Positions 51,912 through 54,471 of a stretch of 54,715 nucleotides of DNA are shown piece by piece. How positions within the stretch are numbered: the first letter of the stretch is position 1; each line of letters starts with the position of its first letter. The DNA comes from Bacillota bacterium (GTDB taxonomy: Bacteria > Bacillota > DTU025 > MWDF01): positions 1-54,715 of the forward strand of contig JAKQNF010000006.1 in assembly GCA_029565935.1 (NCBI GenBank), in the 5' to 3' direction. The position numbers were made by a program, and so were the translations under genes. Under the pieces are notes generated by a model. The model did no database searches. It saw only the letters and a program-made list of their open reading frames with translations, and was not told the origin of the DNA.

Positions 51912-51956
51912 GTTATTCCTCCCAGAAAATTTCGCTTGGAAAGAGGTTATAGGCAA

Positions 51957-52015
51957 ATTATATCAAATATAATTTTATGTGCGGAACATGGGCCACACGG
52001 GGCGCGATGGCGCCC
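51957..52015. promoter_or_regulatory. divergent -10 elements and leader hairpin
   Basis: Minus-strand TATAAT (plus ATTATA 51957-51962) for DUF362 and plus-strand TATAAT (51968-51973) for the first beta-barrel-like gene lie only 5 bp apart. The plus-strand leader then holds a small hairpin GGGCGC-GATG-GCGCCC (52000-52015). No good -35 boxes. Confidence 0.4.
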
Positions 52016-52036: not shown

Positions 52037-52480
52037 ATGAGAAAGAACATTTCAGCCATCATCCTGGCAGCGGCTCTGGTGCTGGCTATATCGGGTACGG
52101 CGGCCGCGAAGTTGCCGGGACATTTTTCGATCAGCGCCAATGGCGGGTACATGTTCACATACGGTGAGCTGGAGCTTGAATACAAAGAGGGCTTGGGGGC
52201 GATCGGGCTTAACGTAGGGTCTGACGGCCTTCTTCTGGAGATAGGCGTCCCTATCAAGTACTTCGTCCCCATCAGCAACGGCTTCAGCTTCTACGTGGAC
52301 GTAAATCCCGCTGCGTTGGTTTGGTTCGCGGGGCCTTCGGTGGAGTTCGGGATAAAAGCCGGTCCTGGCATAGAATTCAGGTCGGGCTTCTTCAAGGCCA
52401 TAGTCGAGGGCGGTTATGCCTATTCGGCGACCAGGGGCCACGGGTTCTATGCGAAGGGCGGCCTGGGCTTCGTGTTCTGA
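52037..52480 (+). CDS. secreted beta-barrel-like protein 1
   Basis: 147 residues. Signal peptide MRKNISAIILAAALVLAISG ending in AAA; mature part about 122 residues with alternating hydrophobic strands, Gly turns and aromatic girdle-like residues (GGYMFTYGELELEYKEG, KYFVPISNGFSFYVDVNP, AIVEGGYAYSAT) and a final GGLGFVF, ending in Phe as outer-membrane barrels do. No known family recognised. First of three tandem paralogs; shares the ELELEYK and GxxxKxGxGxxF patterns with the next two. Ribosome site AAGGAGG. Confidence 0.7.
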   Translation: MRKNISAIILAAALVLAISGTAAAKLPGHFSISANGGYMFTYGELELEYKEGLGAIGLNVGSDGLLLEIGVPIKYFVPISNGFSFYVDVNPAALVWFAGPSVEFGIKAGPGIEFRSGFFKAIVEGGYAYSATRGHGFYAKGGLGFVF

Positions 52481-52549
52481 TCGTTCAGACTCCCGCCAAA
52501 AGCCCGAGCGACAGATAAGGCGACAAATTCTGTTAAGGGAGGTAAGAGA

Positions 52550-53020
52550 ATGAAAAAGGTAGCTCTCATCGCATCACTGGCAGTCATCATGATGTTATTC
52601 ACTGCCTCGACGACCCTGGCCGAAGCTCCCGAGATGTCCATCAACATCAATTCCGGATACTCCTTCACATGGGTCGAGCTGGAGCTGGAGTACAAGACGG
52701 ATCCGTTCGCGTTCGGCGCTCAGGTAGGCTATGGCTATGGCTTGGAGATAGGCGCGTTTGGAAGGTACTACTTCCCTCTCAACAGTTATCTGAACATACC
52801 CGCTGAGTACAGATTGAGTGTGTTTGCTGGTATCACTCCTTCGCTCCTATTGGATTTCACCCCCTCGTTCGGCGCCGGCTTCGGGCTTAAAGTAGGACCC
52901 GGCGTCGACTTCAGGTGGAACCAGCTAAGGGTGTACATCGAAGGTGGATACATGTTCGACACTTTGTGGGGCCCAAGCCATGGCGGATACGGGAAAGCCG
53001 GCATAGGCTATATATTCTAG
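52550..53020 (+). CDS. secreted beta-barrel-like protein 2
   Basis: 156 residues. Signal peptide MKKVALIASLAVIMMLFTAS, cleavage near LAEA. Mature strands: INSGYSFTWVELELEYKTD, GLEIGAFGRYYFPLNS, GLKVGPGVDFRWNQLRVYIE, then GGYGKAGIGYIF at the end (final Phe). Paralogous to the genes on both sides; the repeated VGPGxDFRWxxLRVxxEGG matches gene 3 strongly. Ribosome site GGGAGGT. The gap from gene 1 is 69 nt and holds no terminator. Confidence 0.7.
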   Translation: MKKVALIASLAVIMMLFTASTTLAEAPEMSININSGYSFTWVELELEYKTDPFAFGAQVGYGYGLEIGAFGRYYFPLNSYLNIPAEYRLSVFAGITPSLLLDFTPSFGAGFGLKVGPGVDFRWNQLRVYIEGGYMFDTLWGPSHGGYGKAGIGYIF

Positions 53021-53041
53021 GGATAATAGAAGTTCTACAGG

Positions 53042-53070
53042 AGGGGCGCCGGGCATCACCGGGCGCCCCT
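53042..53070 (+). terminator. hairpin between barrel-like genes 2 and 3
   Basis: AGGGGCGCC (53042-53050) pairs with GGCGCCCCT (53062-53070). A TTCGG follows with no T-run, so it may only partly stop transcription. Confidence 0.5.
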
Positions 53071-53117
53071 TCGGCAATGACGAAGAAATCTGGGATGCTA
53101 CGGACAGGAGGTGAATC

Positions 53118-53570
53118 ATGAGAAAGACGGCAATCGCGATTTTGATGGCATTATTGTTGTTGATCGCATTTAACGTGTCATCTTCAGCGGCCGCGCCTAA
53201 CGAGTTCATGATAGGGTTGAACTCGGGTTATCCGTATACATTACTTGAGCTCGAGTTCGAATACAAGAACGGCCCATGGGCGGGAGGAGCTGACGTGGCC
53301 TGGGCCGGAGGCGCGATGGAGATGGGGATTTTCGGAAGATATTACGTTCCCCTCGGTTTAGGTTTTGATTTCTATGCGGCCGTAAATCCAGGCATGGTTA
53401 TCGTCTTCTCTAGCGTGCCGCCGAGCGTCAAAGGGACGATAAAGGTTGGTCCGGGGTTCGATTTCAGATGGGAACACTTAAGAGTCGGGCTCGAGGGCGG
53501 CATGCTCTATATTTTCGGGCACACGACTCCGAACTTTTATATAAAAGGCGGATTAGGTGTATTGTTCTAG
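53118..53570 (+). CDS. secreted beta-barrel-like protein 3
   Basis: 150 residues. Signal peptide MRKTAIAILMALLLLIAFNV, cleavage near SAAA. Mature part: GLNSGYPYTLLELEFEYKNG, GIFGRYYVPLGLGFDFYAAV, VGPGFDFRWEHLRVGLEGG, and the end FYIKGGLGVLF, again Phe-terminated. Same design as the two preceding genes, so it arose by tandem duplication. Followed by a strong terminator. Confidence 0.7.
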   Translation: MRKTAIAILMALLLLIAFNVSSSAAAPNEFMIGLNSGYPYTLLELEFEYKNGPWAGGADVAWAGGAMEMGIFGRYYVPLGLGFDFYAAVNPGMVIVFSSVPPSVKGTIKVGPGFDFRWEHLRVGLEGGMLYIFGHTTPNFYIKGGLGVLF

Positions 53571-53598
53571 AGATGTTCCTCGATGGGAAGAGCATATG

Positions 53599-53629
53599 GG
53601 TGCAGGCATCACGGCCTGCACCTTTCTAT
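53599..53629 (+). terminator. strong terminator after barrel-like cluster
   Basis: GGTGCAGGC (53599-53607) pairs perfectly with GCCTGCACC (53614-53622), loop ATCACG, followed by TTTCTATTT. Confidence 0.85.
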
Positions 53630-53680: not shown

Positions 53681-53709
53681 TTGACACGAGCCGGCTATGG
53701 TCTTATTAT
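53681..53709 (+). promoter_or_regulatory. promoter for TetR gene
   Basis: TTGACA (53681-53686), 17-bp spacer, TATTAT (53704-53709; one mismatch). The operator at 53713-53730 begins 4 bp after the -10, covering the start site. Confidence 0.75.
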
Positions 53710-53712
53710 ACT

Positions 53713-53730
53713 ATATAACGAACGTTATAT
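53713..53730. promoter_or_regulatory. TetR operator 1
   Basis: ATATAACGAACGTTATAT: 8-bp arms around AA. An identical 18-bp copy lies at 54454-54471. Its position over the transcription start of the TetR gene is that of an autorepressor. Confidence 0.75.
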
Positions 53731-53750: not shown

Positions 53751-54338
53751 ATGGACAGGGCGGAAGCATCCGGGCAAGAAGGGACCAGCACCAAGGACAG
53801 GCTGTTGAGAAACGCCGTATCTATGTTCAGCGAAAAGGGTTTCCACGGGACTTCCATGCGGGAGATAGCCAAGGCCTCGGGTTGCGGCCTGCCGACACTC
53901 TATTACCATTACTCTAGCAAGAGCGAGCTCTTCGAGGAGATAGTCGTGAACCAGTTCCTCAAGATAACGGAGAAGATGAACAAGCAGGTCGATTTTACGA
54001 AGAAGCCGGAGGAGATATACCTGCAGGTCATAAGGACCCGCATCAATCTCGAGGGCTTCGACAGGGATGTATACAAGATGGCGCTTAAGGTATGGCTCGG
54101 CTTCGAGGACAGCGGAAAAGCCAGGGAAAAGGTGCTGGAATGGGAGAACAAGCGCGCCGAATCGAACAGGCGGATCATGGCGAGGGGCATAGCCAACGAA
54201 GCCCTGCGCGAGGACGTCATGGAGATACTAATAAACTACATCGAGAATATGGTGAACAGGATAATATTGCTTGATGAGAATGTAGACGAAGACAAGGTAA
54301 GAAGACAGATATCCCTTCTCTTCGCTATGGGCTTATGA
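53751..54338 (+). CDS. TetR family transcriptional regulator
   Basis: 195 residues. N-terminal HTH: DRLLRNAVSMFSEKGFHGTS, then MREIAKASGCGLPTLYYHYSSKSELF, the typical TetR recognition helix and YYHF-like turn. The C-terminal ligand domain is helical and not typed. Start ATG 53751 with GGGGGCG upstream. The promoter holds an operator whose exact copy stands before the next gene, so it probably represses both itself and that gene and responds to a small molecule. It follows the barrel-like cluster, but a terminator separates them. Confidence 0.93.
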   Translation: MDRAEASGQEGTSTKDRLLRNAVSMFSEKGFHGTSMREIAKASGCGLPTLYYHYSSKSELFEEIVVNQFLKITEKMNKQVDFTKKPEEIYLQVIRTRINLEGFDRDVYKMALKVWLGFEDSGKAREKVLEWENKRAESNRRIMARGIANEALREDVMEILINYIENMVNRIILLDENVDEDKVRRQISLLFAMGL

Positions 54339-54453: not shown

Positions 54454-54471
54454 ATATAACGAACGTTATAT
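54454..54471. promoter_or_regulatory. TetR operator 2
   Basis: ATATAACGAACGTTATAT, identical to the site at 53713-53730, directly upstream of the ribosome site of the truncated gene (AGGAGG 54473-54478). A TAATAA-type -10 may lie just before. Confidence 0.75.

Follow-up and report, generated by a model that had tools for sequence, protein, structure and literature searches.

What do three tandem genes for secreted paralogs ending in phenylalanine encode in a genome of the Bacillota, and do they point to a cell with an outer membrane? The window analysed here spans an entire contig (C15, 54,715 bp), and the genome it belongs to (1.80 Mb) has an estimated completeness of 98% and contamination of 0.3%. 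A preliminary description had placed three such paralogs at 52037-53570, and the open reading frames were indeed found there (P1, P2, and P3; Table 1). They are co-directional, with spacers of 69 bp (P1-P2) and 97 bp (P2-P3), and a Shine-Dalgarno sequence precedes each gene. P2 and P3 shared 40% and 44% identity with P1, respectively; P3 was homologous to both P1 and P2 along the full length, and 43 of the 162 columns were invariant across the trio alignment. Signal peptides were called by eye in all family members from a K/R n-region, a hydrophobic core, and an A-x-A-like end. The Sec signal peptides attributed to P1-P3 were recognised in this way, and the mature chains of about 123, 132, and 125 aa agreed with the 120-135 residues described. 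The shared ELExEYK motif occurred as ELELEYK in P1 and P2 and as ELEFEYK in P3. The second motif, VGPGxDFRW, was present in P2 and P3 as had been noted, its equivalent in P1 being AGPGIEFRS (trio-wide form, K(V/A)GPGx(D/E)FR), and all three proteins terminated in Phe. The number three is right for the window but incomplete for the genome, which holds six family members: P1-P3, two in tandem on contig C19, and one on contig C36. The C19 and C36 paralogs all end in Phe as well.

Table 1. Features of the P1-P3 locus (positions in the window)
Feature	Position	Strand	Description
Conserved AATTATATCAAATATA block	51956..51971	.	16 bp, in the spacer that separates the divergent DUF362 (-) and P1 (+) genes
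Hairpin GGGCGC-GATG-GCGCCC	52000..52015	+	just 5' of the P1 Shine-Dalgarno sequence
P1	52037-52480	+	147-aa precursor, mature ~123 aa; minimal eight-stranded outer-membrane barrel (predicted)
P1 signal peptide	52037..52108	+	MRKNISAIILAAALVLAISGTAAA followed by K; cleavage at about A24/K25, by eye
P1 beta-signal KGGLGFVF	52454..52477	+	C-terminal; fits polar-x-G-x-x-hydrophobic-x-aromatic
P2	52550-53020	+	156-aa precursor, mature ~132 aa; eight-stranded outer-membrane barrel (predicted)
P2 signal peptide	52550..52621	+	cleavage at about A24/E25, by eye
P2 beta-signal KAGIGYIF	52994..53017	+	C-terminal; same motif search
P3	53118-53570	+	150-aa precursor, mature ~125 aa; paralogous outer-membrane barrel (by homology to P1 and P2)
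P3 signal peptide	53118..53192	+	cleavage at about A25/A26, by eye
P3 beta-signal KGGLGVLF	53544..53567	+	C-terminal; same motif search
Terminator-like hairpin	53598..53623	+	10 pairs, consensus scan; after P3

The structures of P1 and P2 were modelled with AlphaFold2 from nine rows comprising only window and same-genus sequences; P3 served solely as a row in both alignments. The P2 model (mean pLDDT, 92.2; pTM, 0.81) contained eight strands, at residues 4-13, 16-25, 29-38, 41-52, 63-78, 84-99, 102-113, and 119-131 of the mature chain. The P1 model (mean pLDDT, 90.4; pTM, 0.79) followed the same eight-strand plan, with the fourth strand split in two by DSSP (42-46 and 49-56). The predicted strand connections were just 2-10 residues long, the extracellular ones 2-5, and strands 5 and 6 of P2, predicted at 16 residues each, extended past the others. 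When the models were compared with the PDB by Foldseek, nearly all of the 50 best matches of P1 and of P2 were transmembrane beta-barrels, albeit with modest E-values. The P2 matches included OprF, OmpA, OmpX, Tsx, and Ail (best E, 1.2e-3), and the P1 matches included NspA, OmpA, OmpW, and the designed transmembrane barrel 6x9z (best E, 5.1e-4). P1 and 6x9z aligned over 129 columns with TM-scores of 0.71/0.73 and an rmsd of 3.6, and a Thermus barrel (3dzm) was among the matches of both P1 and P2. Among viral predicted structures, the best matches of P2 were also mostly annotated as outer-membrane barrels. P1 and P2 are thus predicted to arrange eight antiparallel strands in a closed barrel, the closure between strands 1 and 8 being suggested by the full-length matches. 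The models and their fold matches bear out the small eight-stranded outer-membrane barrels first proposed, and no jelly-roll emerged.

The preliminary description had also taken the trio as a hint of a diderm cell, and the rest of the genome agreed with it. The genome encodes BamA (PF01103, E=1.1e-40) with Omp85 and POTRA domains, and bamA is followed by genes for an OmpH/Skp homologue, LptF/G, LptC, and an LptB-like ATPase. Two SLH-domain proteins are also encoded; the one of 1,123 aa, which ends in TTF, is OmpM-like and adjoined by a possible barrel protein. Every one of the 12 genomes sampled from the order (G000-G011) encodes BamA. The search for outer-membrane genes, as first proposed, was successful for BamA but not for LpxC, LpxB, and TamB. 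LpxC was found neither in the own genome nor in any of the 12 sampled order genomes, and LpxB gave only weak partial-profile matches and no full match in these 12. TamB (PF04357) was not found in the own genome and was weak or absent across the order, where a divergent TamB could be missed; its placement next to BamA, a feature of LPS-containing diderm Bacillota, was not seen here. The seven other BamA-positive Bacillota sampled all carried LpxC, and they also carried LpxB and TamB. Since LpxC, LpxB, and TamB were not found, the diderm inference rests on the BamA, Lpt, and OmpM-type genes and not on lipopolysaccharide. Judged by lipid A synthesis (LpxC and LpxB), the order did not match the LPS-containing diderm type of the Negativicutes and Halanaerobiales; by its gene content, it looks like a diderm order of the Bacillota devoid of lipid A and LPS. 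Diderm Bacillota are known from the Negativicutes, Halanaerobiales, and Limnochordia (PMC5007114, PMC11456536, PMC11448272).

Two further features of the bamA cluster were observed. The gene directly upstream of bamA (L018:9917-11593, + strand) encodes a SpoIVB-type S55 peptidase-domain protein, which is unusual in an outer-membrane cluster. Moreover, LptF/G lies inside an open frame of ~1,050-1,140 aa (L018:14044-17283, + strand, on G000:C23), likewise in at least eight other order genomes, and the length of LptF/G in the LPS-making Bacillota sampled is about 363-421 aa. The extra ~700 aa have a signal-peptide-like start and appear OstA/LptD-like by eye; they had no Pfam match, and NCBIfam gave a weak, sub-threshold match to a putative porin family. 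The frame is a conserved fusion of the inner-membrane Lpt permease with a probable outer-membrane part.

The chemistry of the predicted strands was then considered. Each strand was split into two faces and the more hydrophobic face was taken as the lipid face, the resulting bias being controlled by shuffles. Charged residues occupied 0 of 49 positions on the lipid face of P2 and 16 of 50 on its lumen face; the corresponding values for P1 were 1 of 49 and 14 of 50. The face contrast was 2.25 for P2 and 2.21 for P1, compared with 0.90 and 0.97 in 5,000 strand-residue shuffles (p=0.0002 each). The invariant charged residues (E19, E21, E23, K25, E42, K90, R98, and E107 of mature P2) all faced the lumen, and the charges of the E-L-E-L-E-Y-K strand were on the polar face. 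In the models, this face chemistry is that of a barrel that sits in lipid and has a charged core, the opposite of a lipocalin. Furthermore, a beta-signal of the form polar-x-Gly-x-x-hydrophobic-x-Phe was found at the C-terminus of all nine trio proteins from three species. In six genome stretches, only 8 of 89 open reading frames with a plausible Shine-Dalgarno sequence ended in Phe, and most of these 8 were OMP-like.

Since the predicted barrel, the membrane-type faces, the beta-signal, and the BamA, OmpH, Lpt, and SLH genes all point the same way, P1-P3 are very probably small outer-membrane barrels of a diderm member of the Bacillota, inserted by BamA. They would leave the cytoplasm by Sec, presumably escorted by the OmpH/Skp-like protein, and BamA would recognise the C-terminal beta-signal and fold each of them into an eight-stranded antiparallel barrel. 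Such a barrel would be hydrophobic outside and charged, glycine-rich, and plugged inside, with almost no surface loops. As for the specific role, elimination leads us to lean towards a structural or barrier barrel resembling OmpX and OmpA, given the filled lumen and the lack of an invariant His or Ser such as PagL and PagP have. They would then be abundant barrels that pack and stabilise the outer membrane, rather than act as general pores or enzymes.

Less probable, but still to be taken seriously, is that these small outer-membrane proteins bind a ligand or partner as receptors, adhesins, or docking barrels, with the paralogs specialised. Selection maintains three to six diverged paralogs, and predicted strands 5 and 6 protrude, as in the protruding sheet of OmpX. 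However, the very short extracellular connections leave little binding surface, and the only candidate partner gene linked to the trio is the divergent DUF362 ferredoxin-domain gene. We consider it improbable that P1-P3 are outer-membrane lipid enzymes or small channels, although PagL, PagP, and OmpW occurred among the fold matches. PagL and PagP are lipid A enzymes whose catalytic residues are His or Ser. A similar activity is unlikely here, given that neither Ser nor His is invariant in the family and that the LpxC and LpxB searches revealed no lipid A substrate pathway. A pore is hard to reconcile with a lumen filled by crowded charged side chains, since barrels of 8-10 strands are poor channels (PMC10628300). 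Soluble secreted barrels of the lipocalin, VapB, or avidin type, periplasmic or extracellular, have the same strand count and size and appeared low in the P2 Foldseek list (CpeS at rank 41, VapB at rank 50), but this reading is very improbable, and a lipocalin-like fold was rejected on strand-face chemistry, because the charges lie inside and the hydrophobic residues outside, outer-membrane proteins rank higher among the matches, and a beta-signal and BamA are present.

As outer-membrane barrels, P1-P3 resemble OmpX, Ail, NspA, and the barrel domains of OmpA and OprF of the Proteobacteria, which were the best fold matches, in their eight antiparallel strands, Sec signal (here called by eye), C-terminal aromatic beta-signal, charged lumen, and hydrophobic outside. 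They differ from these proteins in having no detectable sequence homology to them and in being nearly loop-free, with mature chains of only 123-132 aa. Unlike OmpA, they have no peptidoglycan-binding domain, and their host belongs to an order of the Bacillota without detectable lipid A genes. The major outer membrane protein of Thermus thermophilus (3dzm), an organism not known to have classical LPS, is also a small barrel and matched in both fold searches; however, ~200 residues are resolved in it, compared to ~125 in P1-P3, and no sequence match was found. The designed 6x9z is similar in length and was the best global fit of P1, but it is artificial, whereas P1 is a natural protein whose charged core is conserved. 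OmpM and two 10-stranded proteins of Veillonella parvula are likewise outer-membrane proteins of diderm Bacillota (PMC10628300); OmpM consists of an SLH stalk and a 16-stranded barrel, and P1-P3 have neither.

The order and orientation of P1-P2-P3 were kept in two further same-genus genomes (G001 and G002), beside the same divergent DUF362 gene. The G001 contig matches MWDF01 (Firmicutes bacterium ADurb.Bin153) and the G002 contig matches JAGOKM01 (Bacillota bacterium isolate Go_SlDig_bin_374); a literature search on the named same-genus relative found nothing. The dN/dS values of the trio were 0.02-0.26 in all computed same-genus pairs (NG86/YN00), indicating purifying selection, and in the nearest genome pair the P1 identity was 95%. 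Therefore, given the conserved order and orientation and these dN/dS values, the trio is not a chance feature. In the maximum-likelihood tree, P1 (100/99) and P3 (97/97) each formed one ortholog group, and P2 was consistent with one group at moderate support only (80/78). Since the tree thus allows a separate ortholog group for each paralog, the duplications that would have given rise to the trio probably predate the diversification of the genus.

Beyond the genus, the family was scarcely found. Among 399 Bacillota genomes, the trio profile matched only within the genus, apart from two weak members (E ~1e-9 and 2e-8) in the genus of G009, which is of the same order; a GTDB contig scan with this profile gave matches only in the two same-genus genomes. 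The G009 relatives are two 168-aa proteins (L038:5853-6359, + strand, and L039:5961-6467, - strand) with no Pfam match, and one of them adjoins ABC-transporter and lipoprotein-like genes. Against Pfam and NCBIfam, P1-P3 gave either no match or matches below the cut-off, the sub-threshold ones being to generic OMP_b-brl models. P2 scored 19.4 bits (E=0.0013) against PF13505, short of the gathering cut-off of 28.7 bits, and PF13505 was not among the matches of P1 and P3 listed at E<=1. PF13505 and PF13568 were weakly similar to 4 and 3 of 13 family members, respectively, with a best E of 0.00072 for any member. P1 scored 11.7 bits against Ail/Lom PF06316 (cut-off, 23), in a match confined to residues 1-41, most of which are signal peptide. 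A sequence profile search of solved structures (PDB) with the family gave nothing meaningful and matched no characterised outer-membrane protein. With no named family at the cut-off and no sequence relative among solved structures, P1-P3 constitute a new family within a known kind of protein. The suggestion that the family is undescribed thus holds at the Pfam/NCBIfam level, and the protein type itself is familiar.

P1-P3 are probably transcribed as one unit, because a divergent spacer with an invariant block precedes P1, the consensus scan found no terminator-like site in the P1-P2 and P2-P3 spacers, and one such site follows P3. The AATTATATCAAATATA block was invariant in all three species and much of the remaining spacer varied, and it probably marks a promoter/operator region. 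The hairpin upstream of P1, whose stem was kept in one relative and was absent from the more distant one, is a possible 5'-UTR stabiliser. Downstream of the trio, two identical palindromes, ATATAACGAACGTTATAT (53713-53730 and 54454-54471), precede a TetR-family gene (53751-54338) and the next gene; none would be expected by chance, and they are likely a TetR operator pair. Regulation of the trio by this TetR gene was unsupported, since the palindromes occur only in front of the TetR gene and the one that follows it; the terminator-like hairpin and a separate promoter-like site (53681-53709) intervene. Elsewhere in the genome, the C36 barrel paralog adjoins a peroxiredoxin-like gene (L025:1624-2343, + strand, G000:C36) interrupted in frame by a TGA where the peroxidatic Cys would be (PGDFTFV-TGA-ATE), which probably encodes a selenocysteine peroxiredoxin.

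Taken with the host genes, the trio makes a sequence-level case for a protein-bearing outer membrane in an uncultured genus of the Bacillota that includes Firmicutes bacterium ADurb.Bin153. Natural barrels of roughly the same small size as designed ones should be useful for protein design and for studies of BamA folding. The wider interest lies in the host, a diderm order of the Bacillota apparently without lipid A, which bears on the debate over the diderm-to-monoderm transition in this phylum. We tentatively picture, at somewhat less than even chances, a diderm lineage that has no lipid A yet has kept its outer membrane, BamA, and a fused Lpt machine, and whose outer-membrane proteins, cut down to near loop-free barrels, form the surface matrix of an outer membrane lacking LPS, P1-P3 being the most derived form in the genus. 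If the order-wide absence of lipid A is true, the outer membrane of Bacillota can outlive LPS, and the order would provide an intermediate for models of outer-membrane loss.
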